Shown: one piece after another, positions 6,167 to 19,405 of the stretch
Layout of the letters: every line of letters begins with the position of its first letter
How positions within the stretch are numbered: position 1 is the first letter of the stretch
Source: Robiginitalea sp. SC105
GTDB lineage: Bacteria; Bacteroidota; Bacteroidia; Flavobacteriales; Flavobacteriaceae
NCBI RefSeq assembly: GCF_014243345.1
Contig: NZ_JACLZF010000001.1
Span: forward strand, 1,116,001 to 1,180,000
Length of the DNA: 64,000 bases
Direction: 5' to 3'
Translations under genes and position numbers: made by a program
The notes under the pieces: model-generated
What the model was told of the DNA's origin: nothing
The model's input: the letters and a program-made list of their open reading frames with translations, nothing else
Databases searched by the model: none

Positions 6167-7561
6167 TCACTTACCCGCGGAGAGTTCCGTAAAATATTTG
6201 TAGAAATAGGGGATGGTCTCGATGCCTTTCAGGTAATTCCACACCCCGAAGTGTTCGTTGGGGGAGTGGATGGCATCGCTGTCCAGCCCGAAGCCCATCA
6301 GGATGATCTTGCTTTTGAGTTCCCGCTCGAACAGGGCCAGGATGGGGATACTCCCGCCGCCCCGCTGGGGGACCGGCGTTTTCCCGAAGGTGGCCTCGAA
6401 AGCTTTGCTGGCGGCCTGGTACCCGATATGGTCGATCGGGGTCACATAAGGCTCGCCCCCGTGGTGCGGTTTGACCGAGACCCGGACCCCCGGGGGGGCG
6501 ATCCGCTCGAAGTGCTCCCTGAACAACTGCATGATTTCCTGCCAGTCCTGGTGCGGGACCAGGCGCATGGAGATCTTGGCGTGGGCTTTTGACGGGATGA
6601 CGGTCTTGGCCCCCTCGCCCGTATATCCCCCCCAGATACCGTTTACATCCAGGGTGGGCCGTATGGCATTCCGCTCGTTGGTCACATATCCCTTTTCCCC
6701 GTAAACTGCATCGATATCCAGGGCCTTTTTATAGGCTTCCAGGTCAAAAGGTGCCTCGGCCATCAGGTCGCGCTCCTTCCGGCTGAGTTCCTGCACCCGG
6801 TCGTAAAAACCGGGGATGGTAATATGGTTGTCCGCATCGTGGAGGGAGGCGATCATTTTAGCCAGCACATTGATCGGGTTGGCGACCGCCCCCCCGTACA
6901 GGCCGGAATGCAGGTCCCGGTTGGCCCCGGTAACGGTTACCTCTGCATAGCTGAGGCCCCGCAGGCCAGTGGTGATGGACGGGACGTCTTTGGCAATCAT
7001 CCCCGTGTCGGATATCAGGATGATGTCGTTGGCGAGTTTTTCACGGTTCGCCTTGACGAATTCCCCCAGGCTCACACTCCCCACTTCTTCTTCCCCCTCG
7101 ATCATGAATTTGACGTTGCACGGCAGCTCGTTCTCCCGGATCATGTATTCCACGGCCTTCACGTGCATGTAAAACTGCCCCTTGTCGTCACAGGCGCCCC
7201 GGGCAAAGATGGCGCCTTCCGGGTGGGTTTCGGTCTCCCGGATCACCGGTTCGAAGGGAGGGGAATCCCAGAGTTCCAGCGGGTCCGGCGGTTGTACGTC
7301 ATAATGCCCGTATACCAGCACGGTGGGCAGCTGGGGGTCCAGGATTTTTTCACCGTAGACGATCGGGTACCCGCTGGTGTCGCATACCTCCACGTTTTCG
7401 CAGCCCGCATGCACCAAAGACTGGGCCACGGCCCCGGCGGTTTCCAACACATCCTGGGAAAATGCAGGGTCGGCGCTGACGGAAGGGAGTTGGAGAAGCT
7501 GGAGAAGTTCCTGCACAAGGCGGTCCCTGTGCTGTTCAATGTACGAACCGGGTGAGGGCAT
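6167..7561 (-). CDS. M20 family dipeptidase
   Basis: 464 residues from the ATG at 7561; an upstream in-frame start at 7633 would add residues not typical of the family. Metal ligands of the M20 fold are visible: GHYDVQPPDP with the His and bridging Asp region, ARGACDDKGQ, the general base and ligand in EGEEEVGS, LISDTGM, and a C-terminal HSPNEH. A dimerisation domain lies between, with DLHSGLYGG. The protein has no signal peptide, so it should hydrolyse dipeptides or small peptides in the cytoplasm. It is divergent from the large hybrid kinase gene and has its own -7 element. Confidence 0.93.
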   Translation of the reverse strand: MPSPGSYIEQHRDRLVQELLQLLQLPSVSADPAFSQDVLETAGAVAQSLVHAGCENVEVCDTSGYPIVYGEKILDPQLPTVLVYGHYDVQPPDPLELWDSPPFEPVIRETETHPEGAIFARGACDDKGQFYMHVKAVEYMIRENELPCNVKFMIEGEEEVGSVSLGEFVKANREKLANDIILISDTGMIAKDVPSITTGLRGLSYAEVTVTGANRDLHSGLYGGAVANPINVLAKMIASLHDADNHITIPGFYDRVQELSRKERDLMAEAPFDLEAYKKALDIDAVYGEKGYVTNERNAIRPTLDVNGIWGGYTGEGAKTVIPSKAHAKISMRLVPHQDWQEIMQLFREHFERIAPPGVRVSVKPHHGGEPYVTPIDHIGYQAASKAFEATFGKTPVPQRGGGSIPILALFERELKSKIILMGFGLDSDAIHSPNEHFGVWNYLKGIETIPYFYKYFTELSAGK

Positions 7562-7699: not shown

Positions 7700-10600
7700 A
7701 TGCCTAGAAACTCCTTTTCCAAGGGCGCATACCTCTGGTATTGCCTCGCTGCCCTATTGCTTTTTACCTTCCAGTTTGCCGCCGCCCAGGAGCAGATCGG
7801 GAGGCCGCTCATCAACAATTTCAACTATCAGGACTACCAGGGCGCTCCCATCAACTGGTGGGCCCTGGAGGACGATAATGGAATCTTGTACTTCGCTAAT
7901 AACGTCCAGGTACTGCAGTACGACGGGGTTACCTGGAAAGGCATTGAAACGGAAGGGAATTCCCGCAGCCTTGCCCGCGGAGATGACGGTACGATTTACT
8001 CCGGTGGAATCGGAGATTTTGGATATCTGAAACCAAACGAGGTTGGGGAGCTGGATTATATTTCCTTAAAAGATAAAATTCCTGAAGAACACCAGGTATT
8101 TGAGGATGTATGGTTTATCCTATCCTATAAGGGTCGCATTCACTTTCGTACCGAGTATAAAATATTTATCTGGGACGGCGAGAAGATGGAGGTAGTGGTT
8201 TCAAAGGAAAGGATACATGTCAGCGCTGTGGTTCATGACACTTTTTATTCGCGGATATGGGACGTGGGTCTCTGCAAATTCACAGATGAAGGCACCTTTG
8301 AACTGGTGCCGGGGGGCGAGCTTTTTGCCAATGAACGAATCTATGTCATGCTGCCCTATGATGAGGAGCGCATGCTGGTCGGTACCCGAAACGAGGGTTT
8401 GTATATTTATGATGGGGAGACGTTTACCCCTTTTAAAACAGAGGTGGACCCCTATATCATTGGCAGGTTATACCTGCCGGGACTTGCCCTGGAAGATGGT
8501 CGTTTTTTGCTTAATACTTTTGGAGATGGGGCCTACCTGATTGACCACGACGGGAAACTGATCCAGAAATACACAACGGATAACGGACTGGAAGATGGAA
8601 GCGTGGACAATGTTTACCTCGATTCCCGGGGGGTACTCTGGTTGACATTGTTCAACGGGATTTCAAACATCAACCTGAATTCCAACTTTACCTCCCTAGA
8701 TTCTAACATGGGACTGACAACAGCTGTCTTTGGGGTTATCCGCCACAACGGGGTTGTTTATCTCAGTCTGAACAACGGTATCGCCTATGTTGACGAAACC
8801 GATATGAGTATAAAAAAAATACCGGGAACATTTGAACAGGCAGGGAATTTCCTTCAGTTCCGGGACCGACTCTATGTTTCCACTAACGGGATGGGACTCA
8901 TTGAGATTACTGGCACCACTTTTAAATATGTTCGCCAGGACGACAATTATGATTTCAGGGCTCGGTTTATCACCCAATCCGAATTAGATCCCAAGCGAAT
9001 CTATGTCGATCACCAGAGCGGTTTACGGATCTTGTATTTTGATGAAGCCCGTGACCAATTCTTTGAGGAAACCTCCACAGATAAGTTTATTCCGGGGAGC
9101 GCTAATTTTATCGAAATGGAAGATGGGTCTTTCTGGCTGGATACCTCTGCCGATGGGGAGGTGGTGAAGGTTTCCCCGAATTTTGTAGACGGGAAAATGG
9201 ATTTGGAATCTTCGGAGTTGAAATACTACAACACGGAAGATGGGCTGCCGGATGCCGCGATAGGAATGAATGAAGTCTTTGGCGAAATCATTGTGTTTTG
9301 CAGAAGCTTAGAGAAAACCTATGGGTATAATGCTGAGACAGACCGCTTTGAAGAACGCGATTTCTGGTTTGATAAATATCAGGTTTGGGATCGCGCAGGC
9401 ACTGCTCCATTTGAAACAGAAGAAGGAAAACTCTGGTTTAATGTCGGTTCGGGGATCATGGTTGCCGAGAAATCGGCCGATGGGGAAATCACCGTCAATA
9501 CTGATACTTTTAAAGAGCTTAAGAACTATCGGATCTTTACGGTTTACCCGGAAGCACCAGACGCCGATGGCAACGTAGTGGCCTGGTTTTCGACGCCTGG
9601 CGGAGTGATACGGTATGAAGGAAACCTCGATAAACCCACTTTCCCAGATTTTCATGTGAATATCCGCAACATCAGCATTGCCGGGGACTCCCTGGTCTAT
9701 GCCGGGAATATCGCCTACCCGGAGGATCTGGAAGTGGATTACGACAAGAATTCGGTTACCATAGGATATGCAGCCCCCTTATTTATCGGCCAGAAAGACA
9801 TGAAATACAGTACCCGGTTGGTAGGACTCGACGACGATTGGTCCGACTGGACTCTGCAGACATCCCGGGAGTATATCAACCTGCCCCCTGGGGGGTATAC
9901 CTTCGAGGTACGCGCCCAGAACATTTACGGGGATATTACTGACGAGACGGTTCTGCCCTTTTCGATCAACTACCCTTGGTTCCGCACCTGGTGGGCCTAT
10001 GCCCTTTACCTTTTCGGGTTCCTGGCCATCATCTGGTTTGCCGTGAAAACGCGGACGGGCATCCTGCTGAGCCAGCAGAAGGTGCTGGAGGACAAGGTGG
10101 AGGAACGCACCAAGGAGGTGCAGCAGCGCCTCAACGAACTGGCTACGGTGAATTCGGTGACCCAGGCATTGAACGACAAGCTGGAACTCAATGCGCTTAT
10201 CCGGCTGGTGGGCGAAAAGATGAAGGACGTCTTCAATTCGGACATCACCTACCTGGCCATTCTGGACGAGGACACCCAGATAATCAATTTCGTCTACCAG
10301 GACGGGGACGAGATGCCGCCCATGCAACTGGGCGAAGGCCTGACCTCCCGGATCATCCAGAGCGGGGAGCCCCTGCTGATCAACCGGGATGTGGACATCA
10401 TGGCCGAATACGACAAGCACGGCATCAAGCAGACAGGGAAGCAGGCGATTTCCTACCTGGGGGTACCGATCCCCGTGGAGGACAAGATCATCGGCGTGCT
10501 TAGCGTACAGAGCACCAAGCAGGCCAGCCGGTTTACGCAGGAAGACAAGAAACTCCTGTCTACCATTGCGATCAACGTGGGCGTGGCCCTGCACAACGCC

Positions 10601-12067
10601 GACCTGTTTGAACAGGCCAAGGAGGCCAAGGCCCGGGCCGAAGACGCCAACGAGGCCAAAAGCGCCTTCCTCTCCACGGTGAGCCACGAACTTCGTACCC
10701 CGCTGACCTCCGTGCTCGGCTTTGCCAAGATCATCCGCAAGCGCCTGGAGGAGAAAATTTTCCCCAACGTCAATGTGGACGACCAGAAAATCAAGCGCAC
10801 CATGAAGCAGGTAAGCGAAAACCTGAACGTGGTGGTTTCCGAAGGGGAACGGCTGACCAGCCTGATCAACGACGTGCTGGACCTGGCCAAGATCGAATCC
10901 GGACGGATGGAGTGGAACATCAAGCCCATCTTTTTGCAGGATGTGATCAGCCGGGCCGTATCGGCCACATCCTCCCTCTTTGACCAGAAAAAGCTGCAGC
11001 TCAAAAAGCGGGTGCCCGAAGATCTGCCACTGGTGAGCGGGGACGAGGACAAGCTCATCCAGGTGGTGATCAACCTGCTTTCCAACGCGGTGAAGTTCAC
11101 GCCCAAGGGCTCGGTTTCCATCGAGGCCTACCGGGAGAAGAACCAGCTGATCGTGGAAGTGCAGGATACCGGGGTCGGTATCGCCGAGGAAGACAAGAAC
11201 AAGATATTCGAGAGGTTCCGCCAGGCAGGCGACACGCTTACGGACAAACCGCAGGGGACCGGCCTGGGCCTGCCCATCTGCCGGGAGATCATCGAACACC
11301 ACGGGGGCATTATCTGGATGAAGTCCGAACCCGGTGTGGGGAGTACCTTCTACTTCTCCATCCCGCTGGTCGGGGAAGGGGGCGACCAGCCGATCCAGCT
11401 GGAGCGCATCCTGAAAAGCCTGAAAAAGCAGATCAAGCATTCCTCCCACAAGCTGGCCGACGAGTCGGCAACCATCCTGGTGGTGGACGACGATACGCCC
11501 ATCCGGTCGCTCCTGAACCAGGAACTCTCCGATGCCGGCTACAACGTGAAGGAAGCCGCCAACGGCAAGGCGGCCCTGGATATGGTGCGCATCAGCAAAC
11601 CGGACCTGATCATCCTGGACGTGATGATGCCGGAAATCAACGGGTTTGACGTGGCGGCCGTACTGAAGAACGACCCGGCCACCATGGACATCCCGATCAT
11701 CATCCTCTCGATTGTACAGGACAAGGAACGGGGACTGCGCATCGGGGTGGACCGCTACCTGACCAAACCCATCGATACAGAGAAGCTATTCCACGAGGTG
11801 GACGAACTCCTGGAACAGGGGGTTTCCCATAAACGGGTCCTGGTGGTGGACGAGGATATTTCCACGGTCAAATCGCTGAGCGATGTGCTCACCGCCCGGG
11901 GCTACAAGGTGGTGGAGGCCAACCCGGACAGGCTCATGGAGACGGCCTCGGAGGTCAAACCGGACATCATCATGCTGAAATCCATCCGGAACGGGGATGA
12001 AAAAAGCCTGAGAGAACTGAAATTAAAAGAGGGAATGGAGAACGTCATGTTCTTTGTCTACCATTGA
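7700..12067 (+). CDS. Hybrid two-component sensor kinase with propeller, GAF and two receiver-like domains
   Basis: 1455 residues. Residues 1-29 are a signal peptide ending in AAAQ. A periplasmic propeller of two-component-type repeats follows (for example LYFANNVQVLQYDGVTWKGI and DGSVDNVYLDSRGVLWLTLF), then a Y_Y_Y domain at about 700-763. One transmembrane helix lies at about 763-783, then a coiled coil. Next come a GAF domain (about 827-972), a HisKA domain with phosphorylated His996 (STVSHELRTPL), a HATPase domain with NAVKFTPKG and DTGVGIAEED, and a receiver with VVDDD and phosphoacceptor Asp1307 (LIILDVMMPE). A second receiver-like segment (about 1378-1455) keeps VVDED but has Lys1427 where the phosphoacceptor Asp is expected and is short. 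It is not a classic HTCS because no AraC DNA-binding domain is present. The next two genes probably act with it. Confidence 0.95.
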   Translation: MPRNSFSKGAYLWYCLAALLLFTFQFAAAQEQIGRPLINNFNYQDYQGAPINWWALEDDNGILYFANNVQVLQYDGVTWKGIETEGNSRSLARGDDGTIYSGGIGDFGYLKPNEVGELDYISLKDKIPEEHQVFEDVWFILSYKGRIHFRTEYKIFIWDGEKMEVVVSKERIHVSAVVHDTFYSRIWDVGLCKFTDEGTFELVPGGELFANERIYVMLPYDEERMLVGTRNEGLYIYDGETFTPFKTEVDPYIIGRLYLPGLALEDGRFLLNTFGDGAYLIDHDGKLIQKYTTDNGLEDGSVDNVYLDSRGVLWLTLFNGISNINLNSNFTSLDSNMGLTTAVFGVIRHNGVVYLSLNNGIAYVDETDMSIKKIPGTFEQAGNFLQFRDRLYVSTNGMGLIEITGTTFKYVRQDDNYDFRARFITQSELDPKRIYVDHQSGLRILYFDEARDQFFEETSTDKFIPGSANFIEMEDGSFWLDTSADGEVVKVSPNFVDGKMDLESSELKYYNTEDGLPDAAIGMNEVFGEIIVFCRSLEKTYGYNAETDRFEERDFWFDKYQVWDRAGTAPFETEEGKLWFNVGSGIMVAEKSADGEITVNTDTFKELKNYRIFTVYPEAPDADGNVVAWFSTPGGVIRYEGNLDKPTFPDFHVNIRNISIAGDSLVYAGNIAYPEDLEVDYDKNSVTIGYAAPLFIGQKDMKYSTRLVGLDDDWSDWTLQTSREYINLPPGGYTFEVRAQNIYGDITDETVLPFSINYPWFRTWWAYALYLFGFLAIIWFAVKTRTGILLSQQKVLEDKVEERTKEVQQRLNELATVNSVTQALNDKLELNALIRLVGEKMKDVFNSDITYLAILDEDTQIINFVYQDGDEMPPMQLGEGLTSRIIQSGEPLLINRDVDIMAEYDKHGIKQTGKQAISYLGVPIPVEDKIIGVLSVQSTKQASRFTQEDKKLLSTIAINVGVALHNADLFEQAKEAKARAEDANEAKSAFLSTVSHELRTPLTSVLGFAKIIRKRLEEKIFPNVNVDDQKIKRTMKQVSENLNVVVSEGERLTSLINDVLDLAKIESGRMEWNIKPIFLQDVISRAVSATSSLFDQKKLQLKKRVPEDLPLVSGDEDKLIQVVINLLSNAVKFTPKGSVSIEAYREKNQLIVEVQDTGVGIAEEDKNKIFERFRQAGDTLTDKPQGTGLGLPICREIIEHHGGIIWMKSEPGVGSTFYFSIPLVGEGGDQPIQLERILKSLKKQIKHSSHKLADESATILVVDDDTPIRSLLNQELSDAGYNVKEAANGKAALDMVRISKPDLIILDVMMPEINGFDVAAVLKNDPATMDIPIIILSIVQDKERGLRIGVDRYLTKPIDTEKLFHEVDELLEQGVSHKRVLVVDEDISTVKSLSDVLTARGYKVVEANPDRLMETASEVKPDIIMLKSIRNGDEKSLRELKLKEGMENVMFFVYH

Positions 12068-12103
12068 GAACCCTTCCCGAAACCTGCAATACCATACCAA
12101 AAA

Positions 12104-12481
12104 ATGAGTAAAAAATTATTGATAGTCGACGACGAGGCGCATATCCGCATGCTGATTGAGCAGACCCTGGAGGACCTGGAGGACGAAGGGGTGGAAATGC
12201 TGTTTGCCGACAACGGGGAAAAGGCCCTCAGCATCATACAGGAGGAACGCCCCAACCTGGTGTTCCTGGATGTGATGATGCCCAAGATGAACGGGATGGA
12301 GGTGTGCCAGCGCGTCAAGAAGGAATTAAAACTCGAAGGCATCTACATTATCCTTCTCACGGCCAAGGGGCAGGAAGTTGACCGGCAGAAAGGCCTTGAA
12401 ATGGGCGCAGACCGCTATATGACCAAACCCTTTGACCCGGACGAGATGTTCGAGATCGCCGAGGAAATCCTGATGAAATAA
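12104..12481 (+). CDS. Single-domain response regulator
   Basis: 125 residues, only a receiver domain: acidic pair VDDEAHIR at 9-10, phosphoacceptor Asp56 in VFLDVMMPKMNG, conserved Thr in LLTAKG, and switch Lys in MTKPFDPDE. It has no output domain, so it must act by protein contact or phosphotransfer. It lies 36 bases after the hybrid kinase and 10 bases before the GAF-cyclase. This suggests a relay from kinase to regulator that ends at the cyclase. Confidence 0.95.
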   Translation: MSKKLLIVDDEAHIRMLIEQTLEDLEDEGVEMLFADNGEKALSIIQEERPNLVFLDVMMPKMNGMEVCQRVKKELKLEGIYIILLTAKGQEVDRQKGLEMGADRYMTKPFDPDEMFEIAEEILMK

Positions 12482-12491
12482 GTATTGCTGC

Positions 12492-14177
12492 ATGAAGCTG
12501 TCCACTGCGTACAAAGCACTCAGGCAAATACTGAAACGGGATGCCGCTTCCCGCGGCCTCCTGAAGGACCTGTGCGAAAAACTGGAGGCTTCCTGCTGTT
12601 TTGAGGACCCGGAGGGCAACGTCCTTTGGGGGGAAACCGGGGAATTCCGGGAATCCGCAGCATTTGAACACGAAGGGGAGGTCCTGGGGACGTTCCGGTA
12701 TTCCCAACCGCAGGCCCTGTCGGTATTTGAAACCCTGAGGGTACTTTTCCTGAAGGAATGGGAAAAAAAGAAGATCGGCAAGGAGGTCCTGGGGCTCTAC
12801 CGGGAGATCAACATGATCTATGGCCTCAGCGAGATGATCTCCGAAAAGATCGATGCGGAGTCCATCGCACAGGTCACCCTGGAAGAGGCCTCCCAGATCA
12901 TCGATGCCACCCACGGGCTCTTCCTCATGTACGACCCGGAGAAGGACGAGGTGGCCGAAGTGGCGAACTTCGGGGACAACCCCAGGCGCGACACCTTTAT
13001 CCACGACCAGGAGACCATCCTGAAAGATATCATCCTCAAGGGGACCTCTGCCATAGTCCCGGCTTCCCGGGTGGCCGCCAACCCGGCCCTGCAGCACCTC
13101 AAGGCGGTGATGTACGCCCCTTTGAAGGTGAAGCACCGCACCCTGGGAATGGTGATGCTCGGCCATGAGGACAGTGTGGAATACACGGCTGCGGAACTCA
13201 AGTTGCTCACCACCATCACGCTGCAGTCCGCCACGGCCATCGAAAGTGCCCACCTCTACCAGAAAGGCCTGCAGGAGGTGCGGGAACGGGAGGAGGCCAT
13301 CCGGAAGATCCACGATGCCAGCCAGAAATTCGTGCCCTCCGAGTTTATCCGCTCCCTGGGCAAGGACCGCATTACCGAGGTGTACCTGGGCGACCACGTG
13401 GAGCGGGAGGTGACCGTGGTCTTTGCGGATATCCGCGGGTTCACCACCATTTCGGAAACCCTGGACCCCCGGGATAATTTCCTCTTTGTCAATGGCTTCA
13501 ACAACCGGATGGGACCCATTGTCCGCCGCAATGGCGGCTTTATCATGCAATACCTCGGGGACGGTTTTATGGCCCTTTTCCCGGACGGGGCCCAGGGTGC
13601 CCTGCGGGCTTCCGTGGAAATGCAGGAACTCCTTCGGGAGTACAACCTGGAGCGGAAACTCAAGGACCGGATGCCCGTTGAGGTGGGCGTGGGCATGCAG
13701 AACGGGAAGCTGATCATGGGCATTACCGGGGACGCCAAGCGGCTCGATGCTGCCATCATCTCGGATACAGTGAATACGGCTTCCCGGATCGAGGGGCTGT
13801 CCAAGCATTACGGCACCTCCATCCTCCTGACGGAAGAGTGCAGGAAGAGCCTCACCGACGCCGACCAGTTCGATTTCCGCTACCTGGGCCGGGTACAGCT
13901 CAAGGGAAAAAACAAACCCATTGACCTCTACGAATGCATCGACGGGGACGAACCCGGGTTGAAAAACCACAAACTCACCCACCTGGAACTCTTTGACCAG
14001 GCCATGGAGCAGTACTTCAACCGGGAGTTCGCCATGGCGGCGGTCACCTTCCAACAGGTTTACAAAATGGATGAAAGGGACCATCCTGCCAAGCTCTTCC
14101 TCAACCGCTCCGCCCACCTGATCACCCAGGAACTGGAGGAAAACTGGCAGGGGGTGGAAACCATGAGCACCAAATAG
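12492..14177 (+). CDS. GAF-domain class III adenylate/guanylate cyclase
   Basis: 561 residues. A region of about 90 residues precedes a GAF domain (about 95-255; INMIYGLSEMISEKIDAESI through ITLQSATAIESAHLYQKG). A short coiled linker follows, then a class III cyclase domain with metal Asp313 (VVFADIRGFTT) and Asp357 (QYLGDGFMALF), the usual 44 residues apart. The catalytic tail has SDTVNTASRIEGL, with Asn and Arg for transition-state binding. The purine-selecting Lys position (four before Asp357) is Gln353, so ATP or GTP preference cannot be read safely. About 80 C-terminal helical residues look TPR-like (EQYFNREFAMAAVTFQQVYK). It should make cyclic nucleotide in response to the GAF ligand or the upstream phosphorelay. 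Confidence 0.93.
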   Translation: MKLSTAYKALRQILKRDAASRGLLKDLCEKLEASCCFEDPEGNVLWGETGEFRESAAFEHEGEVLGTFRYSQPQALSVFETLRVLFLKEWEKKKIGKEVLGLYREINMIYGLSEMISEKIDAESIAQVTLEEASQIIDATHGLFLMYDPEKDEVAEVANFGDNPRRDTFIHDQETILKDIILKGTSAIVPASRVAANPALQHLKAVMYAPLKVKHRTLGMVMLGHEDSVEYTAAELKLLTTITLQSATAIESAHLYQKGLQEVREREEAIRKIHDASQKFVPSEFIRSLGKDRITEVYLGDHVEREVTVVFADIRGFTTISETLDPRDNFLFVNGFNNRMGPIVRRNGGFIMQYLGDGFMALFPDGAQGALRASVEMQELLREYNLERKLKDRMPVEVGVGMQNGKLIMGITGDAKRLDAAIISDTVNTASRIEGLSKHYGTSILLTEECRKSLTDADQFDFRYLGRVQLKGKNKPIDLYECIDGDEPGLKNHKLTHLELFDQAMEQYFNREFAMAAVTFQQVYKMDERDHPAKLFLNRSAHLITQELEENWQGVETMSTK

Positions 14178-15900: not shown

Positions 15901-17253
15901 TTAATTGACAGGTTCTTTTTGCATTGGATGTGCCGGGGGATGTGCCTGGGACTTCATGGCGTCGATCACAAAATCGAGTGCCGTGTGCCACGCCTGGAGC
16001 GTTTGGGGCGTTTTGTTTTCGCCCAGGACTTCATCGATGGTTTCCAGCATTGCCTTTTTGATGATGGGGTAGTACGCCGCCTTAACCCCGTACTGCACGT
16101 GGTTCTGCCCCAGTCTGGCCAGTCCCCTTTTCAGGTGTTCCGGCCTGGACAGGGAATACACGATCCCCCCGAGCATATGGGTGAGCAACCTCCCCTGGTC
16201 CGTCATATTTTTCCGGAACAGCGCCCGGACAAACGGTGCCTCCGCAAATACTTTTTCGTAGAAGATCGCGGCAAACTGGTCTTCGTCTTCCAGCATGGTA
16301 TTCATCGAAGCCTGCAGTTCCAGCTGCAGGTCCATGTTTTTGAACCCAAGCAGTTCATGCAGGTGTACTGGGTTGTCCTTCCCGGCCAGCTTGCTGTGGA
16401 AGCTCCGCCCGGTCAGGATGGTTTCCCGGTCGACGTTTTCCAGGATGGTTTCGGAAACCAGGATATTGGTCTGCGTGGCCTTGGTTTCATCCTGTATCCG
16501 GCTTGCGACGTTCACCGGATCGCCGATAACCGAAAACTGTTTGTGGGTGGGGTGCCCGAGATGGCCGATAAAGGCCGTGCCAAAATTGATGCCAATACCC
16601 GATTTGAGCTTTACTTGAATGTCCTTCAGGTCGGTGCGGTTCAGAGTGTCCAGGGCGTATTGCATGCCCAGGGCCGCCCGGATGGCATCCTCGCAATTCT
16701 TGCGTGCCGTACCCCCGGAGGTGCCAAACACCCCGATTATTTCGTCCCCCACATACTGATAGATCACGCCGTTGTTCATCAGGATGGGTTCCCCCAGGGC
16801 CGTGTAGAATTTGTTCAGCATGTAGGCAATATCAAAGTTCAGGTTGTGGGAGGAGAGGTTGGTGAAATTCCGGATGTCGCAGAAAATAATGGCAATGGGC
16901 CGTTCTTCTGCCCGCCCTTCGGGCGCCAGTTCCTTCTGCAGATTGTTCACCTCCCCGCTGGACCAGATCAGCCGCTGGATGGTTACGTCCCCTTTCGGGC
17001 GGGCCTGGCAGGCCAGCCGTATGGAGGGGTCCCATTTGCGGGCGTGGCAACTGGATTGTTCAAATGCGGTCTTGGGGCTCAGGTTCTGTATCCCGTCGAG
17101 CACCCGCACCCTGCAGGTGGTGCAAACGCCATTCCCCCCGCATTCGTGAAGGTGCGGGATGCCGTTCCCGATAGATATATCAAGGAGGGTCTGGCCGGTA
17201 TTTTTAAAGGCCACCTGCCGGTTGATCGCTGTATAGGTTATCTGGTGTTCCAT
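15901..17253 (-). CDS. Ferredoxin-class III cyclase-globin fusion protein
   Basis: 450 residues from the ATG at 17253; the frame stays open upstream to 17409, but that part has no ferredoxin-like sequence. Residues 1-95 are a [2Fe-2S] ferredoxin with C38-x5-C44-x2-C47 and C82. Residues ~118-300 are a class III cyclase with metal Asp126 (FCDIRNFT) and Asp170 (YQYVGDE), plus Asp245, Asn248 and Arg252 (IGDPVNVASRI); the purine-selecting Lys position is Gln166. Residues ~315-435 are a globin of the flavohaemoglobin type: proximal His385 and Tyr395 (HVQYGVKAAYYP), distal Tyr332 at B10 (IFYEKVF), Phe346 at CD1 and probable Gln353 at E7. No flavin reductase domain follows. Cyclic nucleotide synthesis is thus likely controlled by haem ligand (O2, NO, CO) and/or cluster redox state (inference). 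It is the first gene of an apparent operon with the FAD oxidoreductase. Confidence 0.92.
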   Translation of the reverse strand: MEHQITYTAINRQVAFKNTGQTLLDISIGNGIPHLHECGGNGVCTTCRVRVLDGIQNLSPKTAFEQSSCHARKWDPSIRLACQARPKGDVTIQRLIWSSGEVNNLQKELAPEGRAEERPIAIIFCDIRNFTNLSSHNLNFDIAYMLNKFYTALGEPILMNNGVIYQYVGDEIIGVFGTSGGTARKNCEDAIRAALGMQYALDTLNRTDLKDIQVKLKSGIGINFGTAFIGHLGHPTHKQFSVIGDPVNVASRIQDETKATQTNILVSETILENVDRETILTGRSFHSKLAGKDNPVHLHELLGFKNMDLQLELQASMNTMLEDEDQFAAIFYEKVFAEAPFVRALFRKNMTDQGRLLTHMLGGIVYSLSRPEHLKRGLARLGQNHVQYGVKAAYYPIIKKAMLETIDEVLGENKTPQTLQAWHTALDFVIDAMKSQAHPPAHPMQKEPVN

Positions 17254-17342
17254 TTGAATTGGTATTAATAAGGTAGTAGGGAAAGGTGATTTGGGATAAG
17301 TCCAAGGTAGGTCATGTTCTTTACTTATTTTACACTCATTTC

Positions 17343-17362
17343 TGTGATTTTTGAAATTCACA
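17343..17362. promoter_or_regulatory. TGTGA-N10-TCACA dyad
   Basis: A 20-base imperfect palindrome (8 of 10 pairs match) between the divergent fusion-cyclase and histidine kinase genes. The half sites TGTGA/TCACA look like CRP half sites, but the spacer is 10 rather than 6, so a CRP assignment is not safe. Confidence 0.5.
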
Positions 17363-17377
17363 CAATGGGGGGAGCTT

Positions 17378-17399
17378 GTATCACTGAATTGTGTGATAC
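17378..17399. promoter_or_regulatory. GTATCAC-N8-GTGATAC inverted repeat
   Basis: Perfect 7-bp arms at 17378-17384 and 17393-17399. It lies 21 bases upstream of the -33 TTG of the kinase promoter, a usual place for an activator, and about 125 bases upstream of the fusion-cyclase start on the other strand. Confidence 0.55.
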
Positions 17400-17420
17400 T
17401 GATAATCATTCTTTTAGGTC

Positions 17421-17450
17421 TTGCGGGAAGACCGGAATTGGATAACTTTG
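17421..17450 (+). promoter_or_regulatory. Promoter of the TPR kinase/LuxR regulator operon
   Basis: TTG (17421-17423), 19 bases, TAACTTTG (17443-17450) is a full match to the Bacteroidetes housekeeping promoter. The predicted leader to the ATG at 17534 is about 75 bases. Confidence 0.7.
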
Positions 17451-17533
17451 ATTGGGCGGGGTCACGGGTACAGGAAAAGGGCCGGAAACCGTACTATTCC
17501 CGGGGTTGACCCCCGGTTGCTAACACTATCGGC

Positions 17534-19405
17534 ATGCTCTCAAAACGGCTGTGCATTCTTGTATTTCTAACCGGCGTCCATTTCGCAAGCGGTCAAATAA
17601 GCGAAGTGGATAGTTTGCAGGTGGTCGTGCGTTCCATCCCCGATGATTCCCTGAAATGCGAAACCTATCTCCGGATTGCGTATTTGCTCTATGAGGGAGA
17701 TGAAGCCGAACGCTTTGCCGGGAGTGCGCTGGAACTGGCACGCCGGTTTAACAGCCCCGGGCTTATCGGCAAGTCCTTCCACCGGCTGGCCTGGTGTCTG
17801 GGCCTGGATGAAATGGATCGGAAAACCGCTTATCTGGATAGTGCCGCGTTCTATTTTACCCGGATCAACGACCTGTACGGCCTGGGGAACGTAGCGGACA
17901 CCCGGGGATCCATCCTCCTGGATTACGGTGCGGTTGAAGAGTCGCGCATCGCTTATGAAAAGGCCTACGGATTCTTTTCCCGGATCCCGGACGAAGAACG
18001 AAAGGCAGGTATTTTAAATAATTGGGCTATAGCCGAATACACCATGGGTAATACCGAAGAGGCGCTAAGGAAGTTCCAAAAGGCCCTGGCATACCGGTTA
18101 ACCGAAAAACCCATTGCCCATGTGGATATCGCCCGGCTCTACCAGGGGATGGGGGAGTGCCACCGGTTAAACGGGGACCTGCAGGCGGCCGTTTCCAACT
18201 ACCTCAAAGGGTATGAACACCGGAAGGAAGCCTCGGATGTCGGGGTTGTGGAATCCATGATGAGCATGGCTTCGATGCTGTATGCGGCCGCAGAAAAGGA
18301 CCTGGATACGACGGCCCTGTCCGATTCGCTGCGGGCACACGGTTTCAGGAATTCCGACGACCTGATCGTACAGGCCGAACAGACCCCCGGGCTTGCTGAC
18401 CGGATTGGTCTGCAGAACTACATCCTGGACGTCAGGCGGCAATTCTATCTGTTGAACAGGGACTATGAGGCGGCCTATCAGCTGTTACTGCGGCAGAAGC
18501 AAATGGAAGAAGACTATAAATTGAGCGAAAGCAGCCTGCAGGCCTATGCGGACATGAAGGTAAACTTTGAAAAGGACCAGCTGAAGATCCAGTTGCTGGA
18601 AGAAGAAGTTTCGAACCAGAAAAGCAGGAGGCGGGCGAACATTTTAATGGTTTCCCTGGGGGGGTTGTTCCTGGTTTCCCTAGTGGGCTTCCTCTATTAC
18701 AAAAACCGGGTGAAATCAGGGCAGATTGAGCTCCATGAGGCGCACCGGGAGCAACAGATCATCTCCATGCGCTCCATGTTGGAAGGGCAGGAAAATGAAC
18801 GCACCCGTATTGCCAGGGACCTGCACGACGGCCTGGGAAACCTCCTCTCGAGCCTGAAGGTGAACATCGGCAGTCTGCAGATCAATTTTGACGACACGAA
18901 TGCCGAGAAGATCTACGGCACGGCCAGCCGGATGATCGATGAGGCGTGTACCGAAGTGCGCAAGATCGCCCACGAAATGATGCCTCAGTCGCTGAAAAAA
19001 CTCGGGCTGCGGAAAGCCCTGGAGGACCTGGTTTTGAAAATGGATGTCATCCACGGCTTTGAAGCCAAATTCCAGGTGCAGGGGACGGAAAAAATCTTCG
19101 ACGACACCACCAATGTCATGTTGTTCCGGATCGTGCAGGAGGCCCTGAACAACATCGTCAAGTATGCCCGGGCGAAAGAGGTCTCCGTCCAGCTCACCTA
19201 TAGCGAGGATTGGTTTGACCTGACCATTGAGGATGACGGCGTGGGTTTTGACACGGATGCCCTGGAGAACGAGCGGGGGATGGGCCTCAAAAGCATGGCC
19301 TTCAGGGCCGAATTCATCGGGGGGACCCTGGACCTGAACAGCCGCCCCGGCGTGGGTACGCTGGTTACGATCAACATCCCCCTGGACGAAATCAATCAAG
19401 TCTAG
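17534..19405 (+). CDS. TPR-containing sensor histidine kinase (HisKA_3/NarX type)
   Basis: 623 residues. Signal peptide at 1-21 (ending FASGQ), then a periplasmic array of tetratricopeptide-like helices to about residue 340. A coiled coil follows, and a transmembrane helix at about 372-393 (ILMVSLGGLFLVSLVGFLYY). The cytoplasmic part has a HisKA_3 dimerisation domain with RIARDLHDGLGNLLSS, whose His is the phosphorylation site. The HATPase domain has NIVKYARA, EDDGVGF and GMGLKSM. This kinase class pairs with LuxR/NarL regulators, and one follows after 20 bases. The ligand is unknown. It is divergent from the ferredoxin-cyclase-globin gene. Confidence 0.95.
   Translation: MLSKRLCILVFLTGVHFASGQISEVDSLQVVVRSIPDDSLKCETYLRIAYLLYEGDEAERFAGSALELARRFNSPGLIGKSFHRLAWCLGLDEMDRKTAYLDSAAFYFTRINDLYGLGNVADTRGSILLDYGAVEESRIAYEKAYGFFSRIPDEERKAGILNNWAIAEYTMGNTEEALRKFQKALAYRLTEKPIAHVDIARLYQGMGECHRLNGDLQAAVSNYLKGYEHRKEASDVGVVESMMSMASMLYAAAEKDLDTTALSDSLRAHGFRNSDDLIVQAEQTPGLADRIGLQNYILDVRRQFYLLNRDYEAAYQLLLRQKQMEEDYKLSESSLQAYADMKVNFEKDQLKIQLLEEEVSNQKSRRRANILMVSLGGLFLVSLVGFLYYKNRVKSGQIELHEAHREQQIISMRSMLEGQENERTRIARDLHDGLGNLLSSLKVNIGSLQINFDDTNAEKIYGTASRMIDEACTEVRKIAHEMMPQSLKKLGLRKALEDLVLKMDVIHGFEAKFQVQGTEKIFDDTTNVMLFRIVQEALNNIVKYARAKEVSVQLTYSEDWFDLTIEDDGVGFDTDALENERGMGLKSMAFRAEFIGGTLDLNSRPGVGTLVTINIPLDEINQV

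Follow-up and report, generated by a model that had tools for sequence, protein, structure and literature searches.

Which signals could a bacterial cell read with a protein that carries a ferredoxin, a nucleotide cyclase and a globin in one chain? This question is raised by a gene of the marine bacterium Robiginitalea sp. SC105 that lies in a stretch of 64,000 nucleotides, referred to here as the window. Haem-switched cyclases are known as two forms, namely a membrane form with two haems and a [2Fe-2S] cluster (CyaC) and a soluble form with a globin (HemAC-Lm). A first-pass annotation of the window had proposed that the gene encodes a single protein of 450 residues joining all three parts and acting as a haem- and redox-gated second-messenger enzyme.

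Gene structure and domain build

Three Pfam domains were matched above their curated cut-offs in the 450-residue protein, in the order Fer2 (residues 14-87, E 7.6e-10), Guanylate_cyc (118-292, E 1.9e-17) and Globin (331-433, E 9.7e-14), which bears out the proposed three-part build. The gene is on the minus strand, a detail missing from the first-pass annotation. Table 1 summarizes the features of the locus. The ATG at 17253 is the start shared by the aligned relatives, and the starts agree across 22 aligned rows, which were trimmed to the nearest Met. An alternative longer frame of 502 residues extends upstream; its extra part was not taken as protein, since the intergenic stretch that it overlies shows conservation at the level of the DNA. 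No FAD/NAD(P)H (flavin) reductase domain was recognized by Pfam in the 450-residue protein, as the first-pass annotation had stated, and the globin forms its C-terminal end. An N-terminal 6TM di-haem membrane anchor is likewise absent, and the ferredoxin opens the protein.

Table 1. Coordinates of the ferredoxin-cyclase-globin gene, its domains and the surrounding features in the window.
Feature	Position	Strand	Basis or remark
Ferredoxin-cyclase-globin protein	15901..17253	-	450 aa; coding 15904-17253, stop codon 15901-15903
[2Fe-2S] ferredoxin domain, residues 1-95	16969..17253	-	Fer2 match; ferredoxin 1i7h match; four Cys
Class III nucleotide cyclase domain, residues 118-304	16342..16902	-	Guanylate_cyc; Foldseek to CyaC of S. 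platensis and Cya2
C-terminal globin domain, residues 305-450	15904..16341	-	Globin (Pfam); globin-only AF2; alignment to 3s1i
EncM-like FAD-dependent oxygenase (FAD_binding_4 and BBE), 471 aa	14464..15879	-	Downstream, 21 bp from cyclase gene
TPR sensor histidine kinase (HisKA_3, HATPase_c), 623 aa, divergent	17534..19405	+	Pfam; 15/15 module loci
LuxR/NarL-type response regulator, 214 aa	19426..20070	+	Pfam; 14/15 module loci (all but L014)
Operator-like palindrome	17380..17397	.	2 mismatches to the module's 18-base consensus
Further conserved intergenic blocks	17435-17451, 17345-17357, 17325-17337 (span 17325..17451)	.	15 intergenic regions aligned

A full-length AF2 model built from 20 sequences reached a mean pLDDT of 74.5 and a pTM of 0.64, with the five models ranging from 56.1 to 74.5. 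Values below 50 were found at residues 39-42 (cluster loop), 96-112 (linker between ferredoxin and cyclase), 155-160 and 232-240 (cyclase loops) and at the C-terminus. Being only moderate, this model is uninformative on contacts between the domains. The 50 Foldseek matches listed for it were all cyclases, with CyaC of S. platensis at the top and Cya2 among the others, and the globin was therefore folded and searched alone.

Conservation and distribution

A pattern scan of the genome_contigs set, which finds close relatives only, returned 19 loci, all full length and 54-82% identical, so the three-domain protein is not a chance product. The hosts include Flavobacteriaceae (Robiginitalea, Maribacter, Allomuricauda, Eudoraea), three Algoriphagus, and MAGs of Saprospiraceae, Cytophagales and other Bacteroidota. 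The search for the full architecture across genomes, which had been suggested with the first-pass annotation, gave 32 distinct three-domain proteins, all from Bacteroidota. These comprise the protein of the window, the 19 from the scan and 12 further ones (L078-L089), after duplicates of the same places (L025, L026, L029-L031, L059-L070, L075-L077) had been dropped.

Genome samples at different ranks, which overlap, revealed a patchy occurrence. Within the family, 15 of 397 genomes encode the protein at E 1e-60, and matches at E 1e-20 occurred in 4 of 296 genomes of the order, 3 of them full length. At the level of the phylum, 33 of 395 genomes matched at E 1e-30, with 3 full-length proteins, 2 matching through ferredoxin and cyclase and 28 through the cyclase. 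The class of the outlier genome G591 contributed one match among 244 genomes at E 1e-50; the G591 protein is 40% identical and carries all three Pfam domains. Beyond Bacteroidota, the profile searches covered plasmids and phages: 550 plasmid records matched at E 1e-5 and 7 phage records matched, and in no record of either kind did a single place span 80% or more of the query. Ferredoxin-cyclases that have no globin also exist, both as proteins with the two Pfam domains (L032/L090) and as proteins placed by alignment only (L033/L091). The three domains are conserved as one unit with their key residues intact, and all residues named in the first-pass annotation sit at the numbers given there and are identical in 32/32 three-domain proteins.

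Residues of the three domains

The cysteines of the ferredoxin part, C38, C44, C47 and C82, are unchanged in 32/32 three-domain proteins, which together with the Fer2 match supports the predicted [2Fe-2S] ferredoxin. Their spacing, C38-x5-C44-x2-C47-x34-C82, is one that we take to be adrenodoxin/ISC-type; the fdx_isc model matched the domain far below its cut-off. In 22 aligned rows, 35 of 95 columns of the ferredoxin are invariant. Judging from the family and from the invariant ligand residues, the domain would bind a [2Fe-2S] cluster.

Membership of the middle part in the class III cyclases, also predicted earlier, is supported by the match to PF00211 (E 1.9e-17) and by the metal-binding D126 and D170 and the N248/R252 pair, which are present in 32/32. 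Among solved structures, bacterial class III cyclases are closest to it in sequence, and 67 of 187 columns are invariant in the 22 aligned rows. Like other members of the family, the enzyme would be dimeric. Position 166, which we take to be a substrate-specifying site that is usually lysine or glutamate, is glutamine in 32/32, and position 241, a serine in the window protein, is S in 18, A in 13 and T in 1. Class III adenylate cyclases carry Lys plus Asp, Thr or Ser at the substrate-specifying positions. The combination of Q166 with S/A/T241 departs from this signature, which weakens the claim of a signature adenylate cyclase and leaves that of a cyclase unaffected; to our knowledge, it fits no standard signature of adenylate or guanylate cyclases.

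The globin part matched PF00042 and, at E 0.01, no other globin family. Haemoglobin-like proteins (3s1i, 3wfw, 3ubc) are its sequence matches among solved structures. When folded alone, it gave an AF2 model with a mean pLDDT of 80.7, and the top Foldseek match was 3s1i, O2-bound Hell's Gate globin I (HGbI), with a TM score of 0.81 on the query and an rmsd of 1.4. Both checks that had been suggested for the C-terminus, an HMM search and a structure prediction, thus returned a globin, and the assignment to the flavohaemoglobin type (F-family) holds. The alignment to 3s1i pairs Y332 with residue 29 and Q353 with residue 50, named Tyr29(B10) and Gln50(E7) in the part of the literature drawn on here (PMC4476040), in line with the positions that the first-pass annotation had given. 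F346 and H385 are assigned in this analysis to the putative CD1 and F8 (proximal) positions, and these four residues together with Y395 are unchanged in 32/32 three-domain proteins. The family and the invariant ligand residues suggest that the domain binds haem, and the pocket, with Tyr B10 and Gln E7, that the ligand could be O2 or NO. Of the three domains, the globin shows the smallest proportion of invariant columns (34/133 in 22 rows), which counts against the main reading set out below.

In S-family globin-coupled sensors the globin is an N-terminal protoglobin-type domain; here it is C-terminal and of the PF00042 type. The F-family globin, Tyr B10, Gln E7, the proximal His and the Tyr are common to this domain, to flavohaemoglobins and to single-domain F globins, HGbI among them, and flavohaemoglobins differ from the window protein in having a FAD/NAD(P)H reductase, whereas in the latter the globin is C-terminal and a cyclase is attached. 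HGbRL of Methylacidiphilum, a globin-Roadblock/LC7 protein and the second-best sequence match of the globin, also combines an F-type globin with a putative signalling domain; according to part of the source, however, its globin is N-terminal and its partner domain is another one (PMC4476040).

Could such a globin serve to destroy NO rather than to sense it? The ferredoxin would then feed electrons to the globin haem, the haem would detoxify NO as a dioxygenase, and the cyclase would merely report turnover. This takes the first-pass idea of the ferredoxin as electron source to its furthest point. The globin is of the F-family, with Tyr B10, Gln E7, the proximal His and Tyr395 in 32/32, and its best NCBIfam match is the NO-inducible flavohemoprotein, although its 51.7 bits stay below the cut-off of 432. 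For single-domain and truncated globins, part of one source (PMC3820574) puts forward ferredoxin reductases and FNR-like proteins as donors. This explanation seems quite unlikely: detoxification needs no cyclase with conserved catalytic residues, and the ferredoxin-cyclase core also occurs without a globin. In addition, one globin position, which we take to be that of the flavohaemoglobin H-helix Glu, is Ala in 25/32 and Glu in 1/32 three-domain proteins.

Relation to CyaC and proposed mechanism

The closest precedent is CyaC of Sinorhizobium, rather than a flavohaemoglobin. S. meliloti CyaC, as portrayed in part of the published account, belongs to the class III cyclases and has a 6TM anchor that holds two haem B, as well as a [2Fe-2S] cluster; redox state sets its activity, which rises once quinones have oxidised the protein (PMC10463352). 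Another account describes 30 class IIIb cyclases that form a cluster and have a ferredoxin placed between a cytochrome-b-like anchor and the cyclase (sections of PMC4821796). A Rhizobium plasmid protein matches the ferredoxin and cyclase of the window protein as one stretch (residues 3-295, 36.1% identity, E 5e-49). Four such plasmid proteins, three from Rhizobiaceae/Phyllobacterium and one from Burkholderia, show by eye a long hydrophobic, His-bearing N-terminus before the core, and in the two that were submitted to Pfam, Fer2 and Guanylate_cyc were the sole domains named. This build fits the description of CyaC.

The window protein resembles CyaC and the cluster of ferredoxin-bearing class IIIb adenylate cyclases, as far as these are described in the sources, in uniting a haem module, a [2Fe-2S] cluster and a class III cyclase in one chain, with the ferredoxin directly preceding the cyclase. 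It differs in having no membrane part and a C-terminal globin, whereas CyaC has the 6TM di-haem-B anchor and responds to quinones; the globin of the Bacteroidota proteins thus sits at the opposite end of the chain from the cytochrome of CyaC. The substrate position aligned with Q166, which is Q in 32/32 here, is K in two and Q in one of three CyaC-like proteins, which stood in for S. meliloti CyaC in the residue alignment. The residue directly before the metal-binding D126, C125 (window 16879-16881, minus strand), is invariant in 32/32 and has an equivalent in two of the same three proteins; it might be redox-sensitive.

Since the key residues of ferredoxin, cyclase and globin are retained in the relatives examined, the protein is probably a soluble switch that turns O2, NO or redox state into a chemical signal. 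With a soluble globin in place of the membrane haem, it can be read as a gas- and redox-gated cyclase of the CyaC type in which haem and cluster are coupled, a reading to which we assign a probability of about one half. The globin haem would take up O2 or NO or change its redox state; the [2Fe-2S] ferredoxin beside the cyclase core would relay or report the redox and ligand state of that haem; and the state of haem and cluster would set the activity of the cyclase, where redox gating is drawn by analogy from CyaC. The main argument is that a haem module accompanies the ferredoxin-cyclase core in both lineages, which suggests that haem and cluster work together. The two-domain forms in which no haem module was recognized count against such cooperation. 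The first-pass idea of a haem/redox-gated enzyme therefore stands as the best reading, given the intact residues and the precedent described in part of PMC10463352. Its further suggestion of the ferredoxin as electron source for the haem is less secure: if the haem reads redox state for the cyclase as in CyaC, electrons may run the opposite way, from haem to ferredoxin, or the oxidation states alone may matter.

A globin can also act on a cyclase by conformation. A partial text of the source (PMC4534343) describes the Leishmania enzyme HemAC-Lm, a globin-coupled adenylate cyclase whose cAMP production responds to O2. It likewise combines a globin and a class III cyclase in one soluble protein. 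It is eukaryotic, has an N-terminal globin and lacks a ferredoxin, whereas the ferredoxin and a C-terminal globin belong to the window protein. By this precedent, or that of globin-coupled sensors, the globin here would be a plain O2 sensor, the ferredoxin an independent sensor of redox or Fe-S status, and no electrons would pass between them. The pocket residues are as in the O2-binding HGbI, and globin-less two-domain ferredoxin-cyclases exist; both speak for this reading. The co-occurrence of haem and [2Fe-2S] in CyaC, predicted also for its cluster in the portions of the literature used here, is easier explained by redox coupling, and independent sensing appears possible but rather doubtful.

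The component fusions are known separately, as had been noted at first, from ferredoxin cyclases (PMC4821796, PMC10463352) and the globin cyclase HemAC-Lm (PMC4534343), each in the parts of these papers cited above. A census of 2006 states, in the part consulted, that chimeric globins generally carry the globin N-terminally and that globins are mostly absent from Bacteroidetes/Chlorobi (PMC1457004). No description of the three-part form was found in the titles and abstract openings of the literature matches listed, a survey that covers subscription reviews thinly, and none of globin with ferredoxin in the part of the main text available for PMC2447327. The present family has a soluble globin and a ferredoxin together on one cyclase. 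A soluble protein of 450 residues should purify far more easily than a membrane cyclase, and it would allow testing whether a cyclase is set by electrons that a globin haem exchanges with a [2Fe-2S] cluster, and what effect O2 or NO has on it.

Two-component and oxygenase module

In 15 loci, that of the window included, the cyclase gene belongs to a conserved module with the divergent kinase and response regulator genes of Table 1. Neither this module nor the PycTM link described below appears in the first-pass annotation. These loci group in the tree with support 81/95, their inner order being open. The kinase of L014 is a fragment, because the contig ends inside its gene. EncM-like relatives lie downstream in 12 of the 15; the match to EncM itself was tested on the copy of the window, which is matched by chain 6fye with E 3e-102 over residues 13-468.

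All 15 module loci carry the palindrome upstream of the cyclase gene within 2 mismatches, 137-146 bases before the start codon, and 11 of them carry it exactly; none of the 19 other loci has it within 2 mismatches. In the window, where one arm of the copy is degenerate, it is the sole site within 3 mismatches against 0.02 expected, and it is the sole place within 2 mismatches in the genome. Three of the 4 genomes searched within 2 mismatches have a single place, and G977 has a second one with 2 mismatches. Across the 15 regions, the further conserved blocks stand out in otherwise poorly alignable intergenic DNA. A scan of the intergenic region for sigma-70-type promoters gave 1 against 0.8 expected by chance. 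In the clade of the window, the divergent two-component system would probably control expression of the cyclase gene, together with that of the EncM-like oxygenase, by way of the palindrome.

The module is absent at L018, L019 (A. lutimaris), L020, L021 and L022. Two Algoriphagus, which belong to another family (Cyclobacteriaceae), carry it with a cyclase protein 76% identical to that of the window; a third Algoriphagus (66%) branches outside the module group and has no module. The Algoriphagus module and the patchy spread point to a possible transfer between lineages, as read from the tree and the distribution. No neighbour is common to the deeper clade and outliers (L078-L091), where close relatives share some, and hence no partner there confirms a cyclic-nucleotide signal.

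Several smaller observations concern these neighbourhoods. An ICMT/PEMT-like small membrane methyltransferase gene follows the cyclase gene in L020 and L021, the copy in L020 having Pfam matches under the cut-off; in L018 such a gene lies near the end of the locus. Beyond the EncM-like gene, the window carries on the opposite strand, at 7700-14177, a Y_Y_Y hybrid histidine kinase of 1455 residues, a lone receiver and a GAF-class III cyclase of 561 residues, in which the substrate position is also Q. In L078 a fusion of kinase, receiver and cyclase (1125 aa, by eye) adjoins the three-domain gene.

Association with PycTM

A PycTM gene follows the cyclase gene in 5 of the 15 module loci, all from Muricauda, Allomuricauda or Flagellimonas, directly in three and after the EncM-like gene in two. 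The distance to the cyclase gene is 15 bases in L015 and L024, and in L012 the frames overlap with an unclear start. All five pass the Pfam cut-off of PF18967 (three also as proteins), and the two tested in PADLOC match PycTM. Relatives of the Muricauda PycTM occur at E 1e-20 in 17 of the 25 genomes searched. Seven further PycTM neighbourhoods were inspected: four have a cyclase by motif alignment, L112 and L117 look similar and none was seen in L114, and in five inspection by eye revealed HD-like proteins. PycTM thus accompanies several cyclase types, its link to the three-domain cyclase is lineage-specific, and its position behind the Muricauda-type cyclase genes suggests a membrane output there.

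The five aligned cyclases near a short PycTM (L073, L111, L113, L115, L116) carry K/D or K/T at the substrate positions, the signature of adenylate cyclases; L073 lies in the genome of the window and the other four in related genomes. On this ground cAMP would be the likeliest product of the three-domain enzyme, provided that the linked PycTM reads the same signal. Overall the product is uncertain, most likely cAMP and less surely cGMP.

In the Muricauda-type loci, where the cyclase and PycTM genes form an operon-like array under the two-component system, the globin and the cluster might read O2 or NO and the cyclase open a membrane pore of PycTM that is gated by the cyclic nucleotide, with ferredoxin-cyclase cores pairing with different haem modules. 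This extension of the scheme is unlikely as it stands. If true, it would describe a gas-sensing, Pycsar-like branch that serves respiratory or nitrosative stress, instead of or beside phage defence, and a ferredoxin-cyclase core that acts as a redox transducer accepting either a membrane di-haem cytochrome or a globin. The PycTM link would then hint that an effector family which owes its name to a role in immunity also takes an input other than phage.

An output in Pycsar-like immunity or membrane stress, in which the cyclic nucleotide opens the PycTM effector, is highly improbable as the main role. The five Muricauda-type loci resemble Pycsar in the adjoining genes of a class III cyclase and PycTM, in an operon-like array, and PycTM relatives adjoin other cyclases elsewhere. 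By contrast, PycTM is found beside merely 5/32 three-domain loci, sensor domains are attached to the cyclase, and neither PycTM nor PycTIR lies beside the gene of the window, whose neighbours are the EncM-like enzyme and the histidine kinase, so that no Pycsar gene pair is formed there. The short PycTM of this genome lies on another contig with a TPR cyclase. The pyrimidine-selecting sets given for BcPycC (F100/R142/Q144), EaPycC (F60/K104/F109) and AnPycC (Y50/D94/R97) in the available part of PMC11224242 do not recur in the window protein, which has F124, Q166, V168, E171 and I173 when the positions are matched by hand, counting from the metal Asp instead of by structure alignment. Assignment to PycC through PADLOC was discarded, since the PycC models match the other cyclase of the window as well. 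We know of no defence phenotype for a three-domain cyclase.

Two loci of the window's genome contain PycTM. At L073 (G000:C2:64500-73000), the short PycTM just mentioned stands beside the TPR cyclase and an HD-like protein that is under the Pfam cut-off, and at L074 (G000:C1:207000-214500) an HD-PycTM fusion of 400 residues is found. PycTM may therefore serve ordinary cyclic-nucleotide signalling in these bacteria. L114 belongs to an Algoriphagus genome in which the module is present as well; here a ferredoxin-like frame of 108 residues (6930-7256) is seen by eye, at 1-2 kb from the genes for PycTM and the HD-like protein.
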